Shown here piece after piece: positions 240 through 30,968 of a stretch of DNA of 64,000 nt. The notes under the pieces are model-generated. The model did not search any database. It was not told the DNA's origin and was given only the letters and a program-made list of their open reading frames with translations. The position numbers and the translations under genes are program-made. Numbering within the stretch: the stretch's first letter is position 1; every line of letters starts with the position of its first letter. Source of the stretch: Herbidospora yilanensis (GTDB lineage Bacteria > Actinomycetota > Actinomycetes > Streptosporangiales > Streptosporangiaceae); assembly GCF_001570565.1 (NCBI RefSeq), contig NZ_BBXE01000020.1, forward strand, positions 62,001-126,000, in the 5' to 3' direction.

Positions 240-1718
240 ATGGCCGCTTCCAGCACTCCGTCCACGACCGAACCCGAAGTCCGCACCGCCGCCGGTGTGC
301 TGCGGGGCACCAGGGAGGCGGGCCTGGCCGTGTTCCGCGGTGTCCCGTTCGCCGAACCGCCCGTCGGAGCTCTGCGGTTCCGGGCGCCGCGGCCCGCGCG
401 GAGCTGGGACGGGGTCCGGCCCGCTCTCGAACACGGCCCGCCGCCGCCCCAGTCCGGCGTGCTCGGGGCGTCGGGGAAGGCGGGCGACGACTGGCTGACG
501 CTCAACGTCTGGACCCCCGACCCCGGCGCGGCGCTCCCGGTCATGGTCTGGATCCCCGGCGGGGGTTACGCCATGGGCCACTCCGGCCTGCCCGAATACG
601 ACGCCGGGCACATCGCCTCAACCGGAACGGTCGTCGTCACGATCAACTACCGTCACGGCATCGAGGGCTTCGCGCACATCGACGGAGCTCCGGCCAACCG
701 AGGGCTGCTCGACCAGGTCGCCGCCCTGGAATGGGTCCGGGACGACATCCGGGTCTTCGGCGGCGACCCCGGCCGGGTCACGGTCTTCGGCCAGTCGGCG
801 GGCGGCGGTTCGGTCGCCGCGCTCCTCGCCATGCCCGGAGCCGCCGGCCTCTTCCACCGGGCGATCGCGCAGAGCGTCCCCGGGACGTTCTTCTCCCCCG
901 AGCTCGCCGCCGACATCGCCGCCGCGTTCGCCGCCGAGGCGGGGGTCGAACCCACGGTCGCCGGGATGTCGGAGGTGCCTCCCGGCCTGATGCCCGAGGT
1001 CGGCGACGCGGTGTTCGCCAAGATGGCCGCGTGGCGGGAGCGGTGGGGCGTGATCACCCATCGGCCGATCCCGTTCGCGCCGGTCGTCGACGGCGACGTC
1101 CTGCCCGTCACGCCATGGCAGGCGCTCCAGAGCGGTGCGGCCCGGGACGTCGCGCTGGTCGTCGGCCACACCCGTGACGAGCACCGGCTGTTCAGCCTGA
1201 TCGACGGCACGCTCGGCCAGGTCACCCACGAGCGGGCCGAGGCCGCCCTGCGCGTGCTCGCGCCGGGGTCCTACCGCGAGGCGTTCCCGGCGGCGTCCGA
1301 CGAGGAGGTCTACGAGCTGGTCAACGCCGACTGGTTGTTCCGGATGCCGAGTGTCCGTCTGGCCGAGGCGCAGGTCGCGGGTGGTGGCCGGGCGCATCTG
1401 TTCGAGCTGACCTGGCCCGCCCCGAACTTCGGCGCGTGTCACGGCCTCGACGTGCCGCTCGTCTTCGGCAACCTGACCGGCGGCCAGACCGCCGTGCTGG
1501 TCGGCGAACCGTCACCGGAGGCGGCGGAGTTGTCCGGGCGGATGAGAGGATCGTGGACGGCCTTCGCCGCGCACGGCGACCCGGGCTGGCCCGCCTACAC
1601 GACCGGCGAACGCCTCACCCGGATCTTCGACACCCCCTCGACGGTCGCCCCCTACCCGGAGGAGACCTCGCGGCTGCTCTGGAAAGACCACGCCTTCTCG
1701 GCACTGCCGCTCCTCTAG
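240..1718 (+). CDS. Carboxylesterase type B family protein
   Basis: This 492-residue alpha/beta hydrolase probably hydrolyses carboxylic esters. The nucleophile elbow GQSAGGGS places the catalytic serine near residue 186. The segment HTRDEH fits the acidic residue and CHGLDVPLVFG fits the catalytic histidine of the type B carboxylesterase/cholinesterase family. The N-terminal VRTAAGVLRG and FRGVPFAEPP segments are also typical. I chose the ATG at 240 because AGAGGA lies about 10 bases upstream; the reading frame is open further, from position 81, but that extension has no family resemblance. There is no obvious signal peptide, so it is likely cytoplasmic. A CocE-like hydrolase follows 30 bases downstream on the same strand, suggesting co-transcription. 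Substrate unknown. Confidence 0.85.
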   Translation: MAASSTPSTTEPEVRTAAGVLRGTREAGLAVFRGVPFAEPPVGALRFRAPRPARSWDGVRPALEHGPPPPQSGVLGASGKAGDDWLTLNVWTPDPGAALPVMVWIPGGGYAMGHSGLPEYDAGHIASTGTVVVTINYRHGIEGFAHIDGAPANRGLLDQVAALEWVRDDIRVFGGDPGRVTVFGQSAGGGSVAALLAMPGAAGLFHRAIAQSVPGTFFSPELAADIAAAFAAEAGVEPTVAGMSEVPPGLMPEVGDAVFAKMAAWRERWGVITHRPIPFAPVVDGDVLPVTPWQALQSGAARDVALVVGHTRDEHRLFSLIDGTLGQVTHERAEAALRVLAPGSYREAFPAASDEEVYELVNADWLFRMPSVRLAEAQVAGGGRAHLFELTWPAPNFGACHGLDVPLVFGNLTGGQTAVLVGEPSPEAAELSGRMRGSWTAFAAHGDPGWPAYTTGERLTRIFDTPSTVAPYPEETSRLLWKDHAFSALPLL

Positions 1719-1748
1719 GACAGACTTCGAAGAACACGGGGGTGCCCG

Positions 1749-3311
1749 ATGAAGCTCAGAGTCGAGCGTGACCTGCGCGTGCCGATGCGCGACGGGACCG
1801 TCCTGCTGGCCGACCGGTGGTCGCCGCCGGACGGCGACGGGCTGCCGGTCGTGCTGGTGCGCACGCCCTACGGCCGGCGGCGGGCCGTCCGGCAGATCGT
1901 CGGGCCGCTGGTCGAGGGCGGTTTCCAGGCGGTGGTGCAGAGCACGCGCGGAACGTTCGGGTCGGGCGGCGGGTTCGACCCCCTGCGGCGCGAGCGCGAC
2001 GACGGCCTCGACACGGTCGAGTGGGTCACCGCGCAACCGTGGTTCGGCGAGGCGATGGTCCTGTACGGCATGAGTTACCTCGGATTCGCCCAGTGGGCCG
2101 TGGCCGACGCGCTGCCGCCGCAGGTCAAGGCACTCGTGCCGGGGGTTTCCGAATCGGCGCTCACCCTGGAGTTCCTGCGGGCCGACGGGTTCTCGCTGGA
2201 GACGCCGTTCTCGTGGGGCGTCATGGTCGGCGTACAGGAACGGCCGTTCTTCCTGCTGCGGATGCTGCTCGGCGGCCGACGACTCCAGCGGGCCCTGCGC
2301 ACCCTGCCCCTGAACCGCGCCGACACCGCCGCGCTGGGGCGGCGCAGCGACTACATCCAGGACATCCTGCGGCACGACACCGGCAGCCCGTTCTGGCGGG
2401 AAGCCGACCACCGGCACCGGGTGGGCGGCGTCCGGGTGCCGGTGAGCCTGGTCGGCGGCTGGTTCGACATCTTCCTCCCCGGCCAGCTCCGCGACTTCCA
2501 GGCGTCGCCGGACGCGCGCCTCACGGTCGGCCCGTGGACCCACGTCTCCCCCGGGGTCATGGACGCCCAGGTCGCCGAGGCCCTGGAGTTCGCCCTGCCG
2601 CTGGCCCGGGGCGGGACGCCGGCGGAGCGCGCGCCGGTCCGCCTGTACGTCATGGGCGAGGAGAAGTGGCGCGACTTCCCGTCGTGGCCGCCGCCCGGCT
2701 ACCCGGCCCGGCGCTTCCACCTCCACCCCGGCGGCGTGCTCGCGACCGGCACGCCGGACGAGTCGGAGCCGAGCCGCTTCCGCTACGACCCCGCCGACCC
2801 CACCCCCGCCGTGGGCGGCGTCCGGATGGCCTTCGGCGTGGCGGCGGGCCCCGTCGACAACACCGCCCTCGAAAGCCGGGCCGACGTCCTCACCTTCACC
2901 ACGCCCCCGCTGGAGGAGGCCGTCGAGGTCGTCGGCGAGGTGCGGGCCGAGGTCTTCTTCCGCTCCAGCCTGCCGCACGCCGACGTGTTCGTCCGGCTGT
3001 GCGACGTCGGTCCCGACGGCCGTTCGACCAACGTGTGCGACGGCCTGACCGGCGTCGCAGGGGCCGACGAGGTCACGGCCGTCGACGTGCGCCTCTGGCC
3101 GACCGCCCACGTGTTCGGGCCGGGCCACCGCATCCGCGTCCAGGTCTCCAGCGGGGCGTTCCCCCGCTACAACCGCAACCCCGGCACCGGCGAACCGCGC
3201 GCCACCGCCACCACGCTGCGCGTCGCCGACCAGGAGGTGTTCCACGACCCGGGCCGTCCGTCGGCCCTCGTCCTGCCGGTCCGGGCCGCCGGTCCTACGC
3301 TGGAAAGATGA
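1749..3311 (+). CDS. CocE/NonD family serine hydrolase
   Basis: This 520-residue protein belongs to the CocE/X-Pro dipeptidyl-peptidase S15 family, which cleaves esters, amides or acyl-proline bonds. The N-terminus contains MRDGTVLLADRW and VLVRTPYG, both characteristic. The GMSYLGF motif supplies the GxSYxG nucleophile elbow around residue 100. The C-terminal third (about 370-520) is the jelly-roll domain, with FRSSLPHADVFVRLCDV and the closing segments around GHRIRVQVSS. GGGGG lies just upstream of the ATG at 1749. The stop codon overlaps the next start as ATGA (3308-3311), so translation is probably coupled. Physiological substrate cannot be read from the sequence. Confidence 0.88.
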   Translation: MKLRVERDLRVPMRDGTVLLADRWSPPDGDGLPVVLVRTPYGRRRAVRQIVGPLVEGGFQAVVQSTRGTFGSGGGFDPLRRERDDGLDTVEWVTAQPWFGEAMVLYGMSYLGFAQWAVADALPPQVKALVPGVSESALTLEFLRADGFSLETPFSWGVMVGVQERPFFLLRMLLGGRRLQRALRTLPLNRADTAALGRRSDYIQDILRHDTGSPFWREADHRHRVGGVRVPVSLVGGWFDIFLPGQLRDFQASPDARLTVGPWTHVSPGVMDAQVAEALEFALPLARGGTPAERAPVRLYVMGEEKWRDFPSWPPPGYPARRFHLHPGGVLATGTPDESEPSRFRYDPADPTPAVGGVRMAFGVAAGPVDNTALESRADVLTFTTPPLEEAVEVVGEVRAEVFFRSSLPHADVFVRLCDVGPDGRSTNVCDGLTGVAGADEVTAVDVRLWPTAHVFGPGHRIRVQVSSGAFPRYNRNPGTGEPRATATTLRVADQEVFHDPGRPSALVLPVRAAGPTLER

Positions 3312-4123
3312 CGATCTTCGGGGACCCGATCGACGTGCGCCGCCTCTTTCCCGCCGAGCGGCGGGCCCTGCTGGAGGTGCTCGACGGGCTCTCGCCGGAC
3401 GACTGGACCCGGCCGACCGTCTGCCCCGGCTGGGACGTCCACGACGTCGCCGCCCACCTCCTCCACGACTACGCCCGGCGGTTGTCCGGCAGCCGTGACG
3501 GGCATCGGGGCGACGGCTTCCGCGACGGCGAGACGCTGCCCGTGTTCCTCGCGCGGGTCAACGACGAGTTCGTGCGGGCGGCGCGGGCCTTCTCCCCGGC
3601 GGTCCTGCTCGACCAGATCCGGCATCTGGGCGTCCAACTGGACGCGTACTGGGGGGCCACGGACCTCGACGGCCCCGCCGACCTGGACGTCTCGTGGGCG
3701 GCGACCGACGTGCCGAGCCCGGCGTGGCTCGACGTGGCGCGGGAGTACACCGAGTGCTGGGTGCACCAGCAGCAGATCCGTGACGCGGTGTCCCGCCCGG
3801 GTGCGCTCGGCGACGACCTCGCCGGTCCGGTCGCCGACACGTTCGCGCGGGCGCTGCCGTTCGCGCTGCGGGGCCTGGCACGCGACGAGGGCACGTCCGT
3901 CGTGCTGAAGGTGGACGGGCGCGAGTGGTCGGCGGTGTGGCGGGCGGGCCGGTGGCGTATGGGCGCCGGGGATCCGGCCGCCGAGGTGGCCATGGACTTC
4001 GACACGTTCTGGCGGCTGGGCGGCAGGGGGATCACCGTCGAGGAGGGCCGCCGGAGGGCCGTGGTGAGCGGCGACCCGGAGCTGACGCGGGCGGCCACCA
4101 CACTGCTGGCCGTGGTGGCCTGA
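3308..4123 (+). CDS. Maleylpyruvate isomerase N-terminal (DinB-like) family protein
   Basis: The 271-residue product matches the actinobacterial family with a mycothiol-dependent maleylpyruvate isomerase N-terminal domain. This is a four-helix DinB-like fold that usually binds a metal through three histidines. Histidines suited to that role are in CPGWDVHDVAAHL (about residues 40-52) and ECWVHQQQIRD (about 155). The C-terminal part (about 190-271) looks like the small SCP2-like domain often found in this family. The start overlaps the preceding stop by four bases (ATGA), so it belongs to the same operon as the CocE-like hydrolase. Many members of this family have unknown substrates, so a thiol-dependent isomerase or transferase role is only a possibility. 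Confidence 0.8.
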   Translation: MTIFGDPIDVRRLFPAERRALLEVLDGLSPDDWTRPTVCPGWDVHDVAAHLLHDYARRLSGSRDGHRGDGFRDGETLPVFLARVNDEFVRAARAFSPAVLLDQIRHLGVQLDAYWGATDLDGPADLDVSWAATDVPSPAWLDVAREYTECWVHQQQIRDAVSRPGALGDDLAGPVADTFARALPFALRGLARDEGTSVVLKVDGREWSAVWRAGRWRMGAGDPAAEVAMDFDTFWRLGGRGITVEEGRRRAVVSGDPELTRAATTLLAVVA

Positions 4124-4126
4124 CGG

Positions 4127-4312
4127 TCAGGAGGCGGGGCCGACGTCGGGATCGGGTTCGGGCATGTCGGATTCTTCGAAGTCCACCACGTCGTCGGCCT
4201 CCTCCAGCGGCTCAGGGTCGCGGGGGACGGGGTGGTCGGGGGTCTCGGTCTCGGCGCCCGACCGTTGGGCGACGATCTGGCTCTCGCCGTCTATGCCACG
4301 GTTTTCGACCAT
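4127..4312 (-). CDS. Small acidic hypothetical protein
   Basis: This is a 61-residue open frame converging on the preceding gene with only three bases between the two stops. The product is rich in Glu, Asp and Pro (for example EEADDVVDFEESDMPEPDPD), has no hydrophobic segment and is probably disordered. The ATG at 4312 has no strong ribosome binding site. No family is recognised. The frame lies in a gap that otherwise holds nothing, which favours it being real, but a composition artefact is possible. Confidence 0.4.
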   Translation of the reverse strand: MVENRGIDGESQIVAQRSGAETETPDHPVPRDPEPLEEADDVVDFEESDMPEPDPDVGPAS

Positions 4313-4440
4313 GGGTGACCCGTGCCCGGCACACCGGGTCGTACACGTGAAGGGGGCCGGGCGGTCAGACGGCCGGGATGTTGTGACACGGGCTCAGAGG
4401 ATCATGCACCCCCGGGCCGGATAACGGCTCGATGCCGATC

Positions 4441-27705: not shown

Positions 27706-29038
27706 CCCGTTCCGGTGGTGGCGGCGGCGCAGCCTGCGGGTCCGGCTGACCGTGGTCGCCACCGCCGTGCTCGGCGTCGGCCTGGCGATGGCGGCGTGGG
27801 TGTTCGTGAACGTCCTGGGCCGCTCGCTCATCGCCACCATCGACGACGAGGTGACCTCGCGGGCGCGGGAGATCGTGGCCCTGTCGGACGCCGGGCGGCT
27901 CGACGGCGAGATCGTGCCGACGAAGGCGACGATCGTGCAGGTCATCGACCGGGACGGGCGGATCACCGCGGCGACGCCGTCGACCGACCGCCTGGTGCCG
28001 CTGCTGCCGCGCGGCGCGCGCGCCGCCGCGGCCGACTCGGGGAAGCCGCAGTTCCTCGACGGCCGCCCCTACGGCATCCCGGCCGTGCTGCGGATCACGG
28101 TGCTGAGCGCCGACAACGGGGTGACGGTCCTGACGGCCCGCTCCTTCAGCGAGATCGAACGGGCCCTGAAGGCGACCGGCCACGTCCTGCTGCTCGGCAC
28201 CCCGCTGCTGCTGGTCGTGCTCGCCGGGGCGTCCTGGGTGATCATCGGCCGGACGCTCAGCCCGATCGGCGCGCTGCGCCGGGGCGCGACGGAGATCACC
28301 GGTTCGTCGCCGTCCCGGCGCCTGCCGGTCCCGGAGGCCAACGACGAGGTCCACTCGCTGGCGATGACCCTCAACGACATGCTGGCCCGCCTGGAGGAGG
28401 CCGGCTCCCGGCAGCGGGCCCTGGTCAGCGACGCCGCCCACGAGCTGCGGAGCCCGCTGGCCAGCATGCGCCTCCAGTTGGAGGTGGCGCTGAGCCACCC
28501 GGACGGCCAGGACTGGCGCGAGACGGCCGAAGGCGTCCTGGAGGACACCCTGCGGTTGTCGAAACTGGCCGAGGACCTGCTGGCCCTCGCCCGGCTCGAC
28601 GAGGGGCGGACCCTGCGCCACGAACCGGTCGAACTCGGCCGGCTGGTGACCCGCACCGCCTCCCGGTACGGCCTCGACGCCGACATCCCGGCCGAGGCCG
28701 TGGTCGTGATCGGGGCCGAGATGGACCTGGGCCGGGTGCTCGTCAACCTGATCGACAACGCCGTCCGGCACGCCCACGACAAGGTCCGCGTGGGGTTGTG
28801 GAAGGCGGGGCCGTGGGCGGTCGTCACCGTCACCGACGACGGGCCCGGCATTCCCCCGGAGGACCGCGAGCGGGTGTTCGACCGGTTCACCCGGCTCGAC
28901 ACCTCACGCTCGCGCGACGACGGCGGCACGGGGCTGGGACTGGCCATCGCGCGGGAGGTCGTCGAGGCCCACGGCGGCACGATCACGCTCGACGACGCGG
29001 AGCCGGGGCTCAGGGCGACGGTCCGGCTGCCCGTATAG
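27695..29038 (+). CDS. Sensor histidine kinase partner
   Basis: The 447-residue kinase has TM1 (LTVVATAVLGVGLAMAAWVFV) and an extracytoplasmic segment of about 130 residues. TM2 (VLLLGTPLLLVVLAGASWVII) is followed by a HAMP domain. The HisKA box is SDAAHELRSPLASMRL and the ATP-binding domain shows N-box LVNLIDNAVRHA, G1 DDGPGIPPEDRERVFDRFTR and G2 GGTGLGLAI. It begins inside the end of the regulator gene, so the two are co-translated. The extracellular region has no recognised sensor fold. The neighbouring ABC exporter and LolA-like protein suggest an envelope signal. Confidence 0.93.
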   Translation: MAANPFRWWRRRSLRVRLTVVATAVLGVGLAMAAWVFVNVLGRSLIATIDDEVTSRAREIVALSDAGRLDGEIVPTKATIVQVIDRDGRITAATPSTDRLVPLLPRGARAAAADSGKPQFLDGRPYGIPAVLRITVLSADNGVTVLTARSFSEIERALKATGHVLLLGTPLLLVVLAGASWVIIGRTLSPIGALRRGATEITGSSPSRRLPVPEANDEVHSLAMTLNDMLARLEEAGSRQRALVSDAAHELRSPLASMRLQLEVALSHPDGQDWRETAEGVLEDTLRLSKLAEDLLALARLDEGRTLRHEPVELGRLVTRTASRYGLDADIPAEAVVVIGAEMDLGRVLVNLIDNAVRHAHDKVRVGLWKAGPWAVVTVTDDGPGIPPEDRERVFDRFTRLDTSRSRDDGGTGLGLAIAREVVEAHGGTITLDDAEPGLRATVRLPV

Positions 29039-29090
29039 GTGGGTCGGAGGTAGATCTGCCGACGGTGACCAGCCCCTTGGCCGATTGCTG

Positions 29091-30638
29091 TTATGCGGGG
29101 TAGCCGGTCGAACCCGGGCTCGGAAGGTCATCGGGCACCAGAGGCGCAAGCTCGGCCGGATCTTCGTCCGATGCGACCACCCACCGCTCGCCGTCGAGCT
29201 CCACGCTCGGAACACCGCTGTGACGTGCCCCATGACGTGCGAGGCGCACGGCGAGGAATTCCCCCCTGTCGAGCACCGGAAGAAGCAACGCGGCCGCTAT
29301 CCGGGCATGGTTCGCACCCGCGCCGAGGATGACTATGCCCTCGGAACGAAGCGCCGAACGCGCCCCCCCGTTGCCGCGCAGTCGTTTCATGTAATCACCC
29401 TGCATCGCAACCGTGGCGAGCACATCTCTGGTCACCGGGATTCTTTGCGTGCGGCGAAAGAGATCGTTTATGCGCTGTTGGCCGCTCTGGAGGGAGAAGA
29501 TGGCGTCCACCTCGTCTTGGCGGAGCATGGTCAGCACATTGGCAGGTAGCGGGGCGTTCAGATGAAGCCATCTGACACTTTCCATTCCCTCCCGGCTGAG
29601 GCGTGTTTTACCGTCTCGATTCATGGACCCCGACAGGAAATTCCTGCGGAACCTTGTCACCCCCATCGACCAGAGCGACTTCCCGTGATCGAACGACAAC
29701 AGCACGCCGACTCGGCCGACGTCATCAGCCCCGATCATCCATCCATGGGACGCACTGACACGGAGAACGAATTCCACGTCGTCAACGCGAAAATCCTGGT
29801 CCACCCCCTCTGCGAGCGCGAACTCCCGGGCAAGCGACACGTGCACCAGATCACGGAAAACCATCTTCTCGCTGCGCATCAACTGCTCCCAGCGATAACG
29901 ACCGGTGTGCATTCCGTCCAGGAGTTGCTCGACAGTGCCTCGAAGCACCCGCCCCACGCGCCGCCCGTCAAGATCCATGCGGGTAAACGCCGCAACCACC
30001 CTCTCGACATCGTCGGGCGAACCAGGAGAGGGCGGCGACTTACCCATCTTCAGTTCCGGAGGCTCCATCGGTCGCGGCGCATGATCGGGGGTAGATCCCA
30101 CCGAGCCGGGGCTACCCGGCGGTTCACTGTCACCCGCCGCCGGATTTCCCGCATTCCGAAGAAAACCCTCCAGGAGTTTTCGCATCTGCCGAAATTCGTC
30201 GGCCAAGCCCGCGTGCAACGCCCCAAGGTGCCTGACCTCGTTCTGCAGGTCGACGATCTGCTGGTCAGAATTGACGGCCCCACCAACCACATCCGGGACG
30301 GGCAGGGTGGGCGCTTGACGATGCATTTCCAGGAGGACCTTGACTTGCTTGGTGACGTCCTTCGCCTGGGCCGGTGGCGTACAGATCGAAATTATCGCCT
30401 CGATAAGGAGCCAGTCCTTTTCGAGGTCAACGCCATTGAGACGCTGGGTGACCGTCGAGTGACGCGGAACAGGCCGATGTCTGAAGTGCTCCGGAGTGAA
30501 GAGGGCACACAGGCCGCGGACAGTCATGCCCGCGTCGCGAAGTTGCCGTTGCAGGAGAAGGGCGACCTGGTTGACCTCTTCGGAGGCACCTCGAAGCGGC
30601 GATCGCGGCCTGCCGACACCCGATGACTTCTTTGCCAC
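29091..30638 (-). CDS. HTH protein fused to a catalytically degenerate NaeI-type restriction endonuclease
   Basis: The 515-residue protein has an HTH-like N-terminus (about 20-105), a coiled coil (about 121-160) and a Pro/Ser linker (160-208). The last 300 residues resemble NaeI along their whole length. They include the endonuclease-domain segment TVEQLLDGMHTGRYRWEQL and the topoisomerase-like DNA-binding domain with GQQRINDLFRR, DYMKRLRGNGGARS and EGIVILG. Aligned without gaps to NaeI as I recall it, Glu70, Asp95 and Lys97 become His266, Val291 and Arg293; only Asp86 is kept (Asp282). It should bind but not cut DNA. No methyltransferase gene is near. The codons look less GC-rich than those of neighbours, suggesting transfer. 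The gene faces a 2-TM micro-protein across paired palindromes. Confidence 0.8.
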   Translation of the reverse strand: MAKKSSGVGRPRSPLRGASEEVNQVALLLQRQLRDAGMTVRGLCALFTPEHFRHRPVPRHSTVTQRLNGVDLEKDWLLIEAIISICTPPAQAKDVTKQVKVLLEMHRQAPTLPVPDVVGGAVNSDQQIVDLQNEVRHLGALHAGLADEFRQMRKLLEGFLRNAGNPAAGDSEPPGSPGSVGSTPDHAPRPMEPPELKMGKSPPSPGSPDDVERVVAAFTRMDLDGRRVGRVLRGTVEQLLDGMHTGRYRWEQLMRSEKMVFRDLVHVSLAREFALAEGVDQDFRVDDVEFVLRVSASHGWMIGADDVGRVGVLLSFDHGKSLWSMGVTRFRRNFLSGSMNRDGKTRLSREGMESVRWLHLNAPLPANVLTMLRQDEVDAIFSLQSGQQRINDLFRRTQRIPVTRDVLATVAMQGDYMKRLRGNGGARSALRSEGIVILGAGANHARIAAALLLPVLDRGEFLAVRLARHGARHSGVPSVELDGERWVVASDEDPAELAPLVPDDLPSPGSTGYPA

Positions 30639-30650
30639 TCGCGCCTCCGG

Positions 30651-30685
30651 TTGTCCAATGGATTATTCGGTTGTCCAGTGGACAA
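30651..30685. promoter_or_regulatory. Paired TTGTCCA palindromes between NaeI-like gene and micro-protein
   Basis: TTGTCCA-G-TGGACAA (30671-30685) is a perfect 15-base palindrome. TTGTCCA-A-TGGATTA (30651-30665) is an imperfect copy exactly 20 bases away, two helical turns. The pair starts 13 bases upstream of the NaeI-like start codon, so a bound dimer pair would cover its promoter. Autoregulation by the adjacent HTH-NaeI protein is the simplest reading. Confidence 0.65.
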
Positions 30686-30762
30686 TACGGAGAACGATCT
30701 CGGGTTGGAGCCGGAACTCCAGACTTGGTCGAGACCGACCCCTCGACCGGCATGGAGCCACG

Positions 30763-30954
30763 ATGAACAAGCGCCGACCTGTGAACCACGACCTCATGGC
30801 ACTACTCGCCATCCTCACGACGGGTGTGATCCTCATCGCGATCGGGCTCCCCGCCGAATCGCTCGTCGGCGTCACGGTGGCCATGTCGGCGCTGTTCGGG
30901 GCGTGGCGTTCTGGCAGGTCCGGGAACGAGGGCCAGGACCCACGCCAGCGCTGA
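30763..30954 (+). CDS. Two-helix membrane micro-protein
   Basis: The 63-residue product has a basic N-terminus (MNKRRPVNHD), two hydrophobic helices (LMALLAILTTGVILIAIGL and SLVGVTVAMSALFGAW) and a polar basic end. GGAG lies five bases before the ATG at 30763. It diverges from the NaeI-like gene and ends 14 bases before the convergent response regulator. No family is recognised. Its pairing with the pseudo-nuclease across a shared operator raises the possibility of a functional pair, but this could be chance. Confidence 0.6.
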   Translation: MNKRRPVNHDLMALLAILTTGVILIAIGLPAESLVGVTVAMSALFGAWRSGRSGNEGQDPRQR

Positions 30955-30968
30955 TTATGCGGTGGATC

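Follow-up and report, generated by a model that had tools for sequence, protein, structure and literature searches.

In the window, by which we mean the whole 64,000-nucleotide stretch of Herbidospora yilanensis DNA analyzed here, a 515-residue protein (P0001) with a NaeI restriction-enzyme fold and the divergently encoded small protein P0006 would form, with a probability that we put at about one half, an autoregulated, mobile two-gene switch with a pseudo-NaeI, non-cutting head. Restriction enzymes are usually regarded as cutters guarded by a methyltransferase. In P0001 a DNA-cutting enzyme has probably taken on the role of a sensor or regulator, and such a conversion would be a direct case of its kind: the NaeI fold and the second-DNA head are kept and a promoter-type DNA-binding domain is gained. 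As their motif and position suggest, the TTGTCCA-type dyads between the divergent genes would be bound by the helix-turn-helix (HTH) of P0001, which would thereby set the expression of both genes. The predicted coiled coil would dimerise the protein, the NaeI domain, with its CAP-like Topo part intact, may act in turn on the HTH, as a further head that binds or senses DNA and does not cut it, and the small hydrophobic protein would be the regulated or cooperating membrane output. The coordinates are collected in Table 1.

Table 1. Features of the P0001/P0006 locus, in window positions
Feature	Position	Strand	Basis
HTH - coiled coil - pseudo-NaeI protein P0001, 515 aa, GTG start	29091..30638	-	open frame, PF09126, AlphaFold2
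Putative XRE-like HTH module of P0001, residues ~8-110	30309..30617	-	AlphaFold2, Foldseek, N-terminal family alignment
Predicted coiled coil of P0001, residues 124-163	30150..30269	-	AlphaFold2 helix; coiled-coil call by eye
NaeI domain of P0001, residues 208-503	29130..30017	-	Pfam, PDB sequence match, Foldseek
Topo (second-DNA) part of P0001, ~residues 367-503	29130-29540	-	Endo/Topo boundary of NaeI
His266 (= NaeI Glu70)	29841..29843	-	alignment
Asp282 (= NaeI Asp86, kept)	29793..29795	-	alignment
Val291 + Arg293 (= NaeI Asp95, Lys97)	29760..29768	-	alignment
Imperfect second copy TTGTCCAATGGATTA, two mismatches	30651..30665		dyad scan
Perfect palindrome TTGTCCAGTGGACAA, probable operator	30671..30685		dyad scan
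P0006, 63-aa hydrophobic protein, divergent to P0001	30763..30954	+	hydropathy, model
Inserted unit of 1934 bp holding both genes	29035..30968		comparison with congeners

The sequence-only reading of this DNA had described a 515-residue frame with an HTH-like N-terminus, a coiled coil and a NaeI region. This architecture is confirmed, and the strand, which that reading did not give, is minus, with the GTG start at 30638 and the stop codon at 29091-29093. In a Pfam search, PF09126 (NaeI) spans residues 213-495 with an E value of 1.6e-80, and the sequence of NaeI itself (1ev7/1iaw) is the sole strong PDB match (E 1.1e-54). The alignment with NaeI, earlier drawn from TVEQLLDG to EGIVILG, holds and is longer than claimed, reaching from residue 208 to 503 with about 39% identity across the full 300-residue domain. 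The AlphaFold2 model, built from a 54-row alignment, has a mean pLDDT of 86.7 and consists of an all-helical domain within residues 20-108, a helix at 124-163 and a confident C-terminal domain. The NaeI structures 1iaw and 1ev7 are its top Foldseek matches, at target TM scores of 0.83-0.92 and rmsd of 1.9-3.1 (TM 0.92 and rmsd 1.9 for 1ev7), so that the expected NaeI fold was indeed found. Because NaeI homologues are present in the underlying alignment, the model confirms the fold and is not independent evidence for it. For the N-terminus, the Foldseek matches are weak (XRE-family regulators, E 0.6 or worse) and no Pfam HTH model matched, and no NCBIfam name was found for P0001. The module can nevertheless be aligned as a family across the relatives described below, and its weak XRE matches suggest an XRE-like HTH.

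The residues that we take to be catalytic in NaeI, E70, D86, D95 and K97, correspond in P0001 to H266, D282, V291 and R293, in exact agreement with the sequence-only reading. P0001 therefore lacks the quartet of an active Type IIE enzyme, three of the four catalytic positions being changed. T60 and E110 are also altered, to Ser and Asp respectively, and a glutamate, E289, stands two residues ahead of V291. For a view of the whole domain we used the 47 positions that are at least 95% conserved in 86 NaeI proteins with an intact quartet. Of these, 27 lie in NaeI 12-162 (Endo) and 19 at 172 or beyond (Topo), on the presumed domain boundary of NaeI. P0001 retains 15 of the 27 Endo positions versus all 19 of the Topo positions (Fisher p 0.0005), and the 12 Endo losses include T60, G66, E70, V94, D95, K97 and E110. 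The earlier proposals that cleavage is lost and that the Topo domain is retained are thus both supported, the former by the residues at and around the active site. The pattern argues strongly that the NaeI domain of P0001 folds like NaeI and would no longer cut.

To place P0001 among its relatives, 1929 genome draws, some of them of repeated genomes, were searched together with one scan of named genomes. A genome search with P0001 as the single query returned no related loci, and one with an alignment as the query returned 22. Seventeen proteins carry the P0001-type HTH module and a NaeI domain in one open frame, and one more (L138) is cut by a contig end. The 17 comprise the protein of the window, two from Nocardiopsis (L061/L127 and L062/L126), one from Streptomyces sp. 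LUP47B (L063/L129), those of S. cyaneus, S. iakyrus and S. halstedii, and ten more from other genomes. The frames of L061, L249 and L250 do not reach the end of the NaeI model. L138 and a second copy of P0001 in L001 were excluded from the residue counts. L058/L064, a 658-residue frame, was not counted as an HTH-NaeI protein, as its front reads like a wrong frame and is missed by the HTH model. P0001 has no counterpart in its own genome, where one match each was found and hence no second NaeI domain and no second copy of the HTH module. No phage homologue matched at E 1e-3, and among plasmids 13 records match, none with both domains and none with a place covering 80%.

At the positions of E70, D86, D95 and K97, P0001 reads HDVR and the other members read KYDV (L061), KYEI (L062), HDDK (L063, L134), YDDK (L124, L125), GDDR (L128), EDDK (L135, L248, L251, L252), GDDK (L136), TDTK (L137), RDDK (L249) and EDDR (L250, L253). 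At least one catalytic residue is therefore changed in 13 of the 17 fused proteins, compared with 2 among the 89 NaeI proteins that lack this HTH, a control set made up of NaeI and 88 frames, none of them matched by the HTH model. The replacement of the first catalytic glutamate is various (H, Y, G, K, T or R), and with T60 included 16 of the 17 are altered, L251 alone keeping T60 and the quartet. Scored over homologues at the four positions, the proposed loss of cleavage does not extend to the whole family: with four members keeping an intact quartet, "dead" is no rule and a graded loss is favored. The same four relatives would allow the steps of a change from nuclease to regulator to be compared in parallel. 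The remaining 87 controls keep all four residues, the exceptions being L101 (K97V) and L123 (E70Q). L101 is the same gene as L212, a fusion of a Ser/Thr kinase and NaeI (989-4339 of that locus) that reads TEDDV at T60, E70, D86, D95 and K97.

The NaeI-domain dN/dS is 0.14-0.34 in each of the six pairs of relatives examined, which share members and do not include P0001, and indicates that altered NaeI domains are maintained in the relatives. This bears on the reading of P0001 as a functionless, degenerating remnant of a restriction enzyme. The decayed active site and the long terminal branch of P0001 in the NaeI tree (1.34) would fit such a remnant. Against it stand the open 515-codon frame, the intact conserved Topo positions and the constraint on the relatives, P0001 itself being without a close relative for the measurement, and we consider a remnant very improbable. 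In a tree of 80 rows with the four catalytic columns removed, the fused proteins fall outside a 68-row cluster of other NaeI proteins, and the fused group needs two changes, with the long row L058 intruding. In a thinned tree, without L058, L057 and one L110 row, a single branch separates the fused group from the rest (support 83, not starred). These quick trees are not decisive on the grouping.

The sequence-only reading had also taken the lack of a nearby methyltransferase as agreeing with lost cleavage. Neither a motif scan nor tblastn with four NaeI-linked methyltransferases found a C5-methyltransferase in the window, and no Vsr match was found there either. By tblastn, 24 of 30 NaeI loci that lack the HTH have a C5-methyltransferase and 22 of 30 have Vsr, and both are missing from all 11 fused loci; a few of the 30 loci overlap, and the flanks of L128 and L138 are short. 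The six fused loci found later likewise have no C5-methyltransferase within flanks of only about 1-3 kb. The motif scan missed most of the methyltransferases at NaeI loci, which were recovered by Pfam (two) and tblastn, and "no methyltransferase nearby" was for this reason rejected as a stand-alone discriminator. The argument is weak: the genome has six PF00145 matches, all on other contigs. One of these genes (L153, C40:78833-79852) encodes a C5-methyltransferase that shares 67% identity with the one next to an intact NaeI in L071; with this methyltransferase present, the sole NaeI domain of the genome is the altered one.

The difference between fused and other NaeI loci is also relevant to whether P0001 could still be a nuclease, with a changed chemistry and under the control of its own HTH. 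In principle the retained Asp86 (D282) and the nearby E289 could help another metal site, and EDDK is kept by four of the 17 relatives. P0001 itself combines D95V and K97R with E70H, T60S and E110D, and the methyltransferase counts of 0/11 versus 24/30 point the same way. We regard continued cleavage by P0001 as a very remote prospect.

The second gene of the pair encodes P0006, which has a peak hydropathy of 2.64 and predicted helices at 7-26 and 31-56, and does not match Pfam. Its hydropathy, together with a structure model of modest confidence (pLDDT 71.9), suggests a membrane role. A divergent small protein with a peak hydropathy of at least 2.23 is found at all 17 HTH-NaeI loci. The pattern was noticed in 11 of them before it was tested (11/11), and the six later loci, which include L251, served as a subsequent test (6/6). 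The limits on distance and length were 350 nt and 140 aa for the first 11 loci and the controls, 400 nt and 140 aa for the later six, and 400 nt and 200 aa for L251, whose partner scores 3.10 with a corrected gene start and 1.62 with the start set by a weak domain match. Upstream of NaeI genes without the P0001-type HTH, a hydropathy of 1.9 is reached in 6 of 86 regions, the gene starts being those of the open frames in these controls and set by hand at the HTH loci. At the contig-end-cut locus L138 the divergent protein scores 2.36. An alignment of ten of the small proteins, eight from HTH-NaeI loci, shows that P0006 shares 38-44% identity with the main Streptomyces type and 27-28% with the Nocardiopsis and L137 types.

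Comparison with congeners shows that the two genes lie on an inserted unit that comprises nothing but the HTH-NaeI gene and the 63-residue gene. The GC content of the insert is 62.7% versus 71.2% for the window; along the sequence, the GC fraction of about 0.73 dips to 0.61 at the pair. In 6/6 genomes of the same genus the flanking genes, by eye a sensor kinase and a response regulator, are present without the pair. The empty site is a 4-bp junction in L199, L202 and L203, about 830 bp of other sequence in L200 and L201, and 1350 bp in L204. By eye, the sequence at the insert site encodes an HxlR-like regulator and a DoxX-like membrane protein in L200 (1685-2514; also in L201) and a solute-binding-like membrane protein in L204 (2319-3668). 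As the inserted unit holds both genes, the P0001/P0006 pair probably moves together.

Between the divergent genes, the palindromes that had been pointed out at 30651-30685 are real. The perfect TTGTCCAGTGGACAA and its imperfect copy TTGTCCAATGGATTA are 20 bp apart, centre to centre, and are the only matches in the window when three mismatches are allowed, a number (two) that 20 of 100 shuffles also reach. The sequence TTGTCCANTGGACAA is found once in the 7.85-Mb genome. The type TTGTN7ACAA recurs just upstream of other genes with the P0001-type HTH, in total at 6 of 25 such genes (8 sites) and at a single gene among 88 controls. The loci, 1.42 Mb altogether, contain 17 occurrences, some of them repeats of the same sites. 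Among HTH-NaeI loci it is present in the window only, and the others have different dyads such as TTTTCTC/GAGAAAA or TGATC/GATCA. Taken singly, the dyads give weak statistical support, with p values of 0.01-0.91 over 25 loci and 0.09 for the window. Their position and recurrence suggest that P0001 would regulate its own gene through them. The DNA looping proposed in the sequence-only reading and GCCGGC as the target are not supported; no GCCGGC site is present between 28644 and 32074, and looping across the insert by way of GCCGGC was rejected.

The HTH module of P0001 is not confined to NaeI. It also precedes SpoIIE, sigma-70-like, DUF742, TerD, PQQ propeller and NACHT C-termini, as well as C-termini with GGDEF, PAS or GAF, and this recurrence makes NaeI one of several exchangeable heads. 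The loci with other C-termini (L139-L151) mostly have a small divergent gene, of several hydrophobic types. Pfam scanning of the C-termini, carried out on loci other than L146 and L152, gave no family for L141 and L142 and a single weak one for L149. Among 13 non-NaeI loci with this HTH, six have a divergent small protein of at least 1.9 and in six others the divergent protein is less hydrophobic and belongs to a type seen repeatedly (like GLLTELPAQL), L150 falling clearly into neither group; L152, an 802-residue frame, stands outside the divergent-protein and dyad counts.

A pair of this composition brings toxin-antitoxin modules to mind: the membrane protein could be toxic when freed and the HTH protein could repress or neutralise it, NaeI serving only to tune the binding to DNA. 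The two-gene inserted unit, the dyads in the divergent promoter region and the small hydrophobic partner at 17/17 loci would all fit such a pair. The large, exchangeable C-terminal domains suggest sensing instead, and we hold a toxin-antitoxin-like pair to be decidedly unlikely. The divergent partner gene, the exchangeable C-termini and the two-gene insert, on which the switch proposed here is built, are absent from the sequence-only reading.

Going beyond the single pair, we put forward more tentatively that these loci belong to a so far undescribed kind of one-component switch in actinomycetes, mobile, made of two genes and linked to the membrane. The HTH-coiled coil and the divergently encoded small membrane protein would be its constant parts, and the sensor heads would be exchangeable. 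In the present case a retired restriction enzyme might read DNA, by its sequence or its methylation (of a phage, for example), leave it uncut, and decide when the membrane protein is made. From the shared HTH, its exchangeable C-termini and the divergent small hydrophobic protein, one would expect a single logic to underlie many Streptomyces proteins to which none is at present assigned. Among the literature matches listed, with subscription papers outside their scope, no description of an HTH-coiled coil-X protein with a divergent small hydrophobic protein was found, and the part of PMC8195603 that was available does not mention NaeI.

Altered NaeI domains are also found behind other front domains. 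Among 23 extra NaeI proteins without the P0001-type HTH, picked mostly for their long frames, 9 are altered (6/16, L207-L212; 3/7, L254, L255 and L257), and the alteration is therefore not unique to proteins with this HTH. Five giant Streptomyces proteins (L207-L211, 1605-1823 aa) end in altered NaeI domains. NB-ARC matches were obtained in all three of the giants that were scanned, L207 (1495-6309) and L208 (1145-6613) below the curated cut-off and L210 (1190-6181) just below it. L254, L255 and L257 are HTH-type NaeI proteins outside the P0001 family, with the quartets AGRR, AGRR and ADRR. In the two that were scanned, L254 and L257, HTH_31 and a coiled-coil-like stretch precede NaeI. A divergent small hydrophobic gene scores 1.76 at L254 and 2.02 at L255, and nothing above 0.16 was found at L257. 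By eye, inverted repeats of the GTTGC/GCAAC type lie upstream of all three genes (L254 1510-3273, L255 1005-2765, L257 665-2656). HTH_31-NaeI is probably a fusion separate from the P0001 family, and a decayed NaeI in the same layout suggests that recruitment occurred at least twice. It is from the different front domains rather than from a tree that we infer separate events for the altered NaeI fusions, and it looks as if NaeI domains had repeatedly become altered at the cutting site once joined to a regulatory protein.

The giant proteins lend weight to the main rival of the switch, namely that the inactive NaeI domain is a decoy or dominant-negative element: it would mimic a restriction enzyme, a phage anti-restriction protein would bind it, the HTH would change and the membrane protein would be released upon infection. 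The available part of PMC7159879 proposes that inactive modules of conflict systems act as decoys or in a dominant-negative way, and says that the diverse modules of actinobacterial conflict systems are present "typically in inactive form". NaeI-like REase domains also occur there among the effectors of vWA-MoxR ternary conflict systems, and in those passages they are termed enzymatic domains, which speaks against the decoy. So do the 19/19 Topo positions kept in P0001, beyond what a protein decoy would need, and an insert of only two genes flanked, by eye, by a sensor kinase and a response regulator. We consider a decoy rather unlikely. The inactive and NaeI-like modules described in that part of PMC7159879 make the principle of a pseudo-NaeI less than new.

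The switch proposed here can be set beside several known systems. NaeI (1ev7/1iaw, PF09126) belongs to the Type IIE enzymes; it loops DNA and is linked to topoisomerases, as the accessible part of PMC4081073 describes. P0001 resembles it in fold, in about 39% of its residues, in the Topo positions and in D86, and differs from it in the loss of E70, D95 and K97, in its place behind an HTH and a coiled coil, and in its surroundings, where a divergent small hydrophobic gene is found instead of a C5-methyltransferase or Vsr match. The vWA-MoxR effectors (PMC7159879, in the passages available) likewise use a NaeI-like domain as a module of larger proteins; here, by contrast, the constant parts are the HTH-coiled coil and the divergent small hydrophobic protein in a two-gene insert, and the HTH-coiled coil-NaeI architecture does not appear in those vWA-MoxR passages.

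XRE-family regulators and the controllers of restriction-modification systems use short palindromic operators. The N-terminus of P0001 is weakly similar to such proteins (ClgR, 3f51; C.Esp1396I, 3clc; TM about 0.5 on the target), whereas, unlike a restriction-modification controller, P0001 carries a whole restriction-enzyme fold, and no adjoining methyltransferase was found. Toxin-antitoxin and small-membrane-toxin modules share with the P0001/P0006 pair the compact inserted arrangement, the intergenic dyads and a small hydrophobic protein. The pair differs from them in being divergent and in having a very large regulator with an exchangeable C-terminus.
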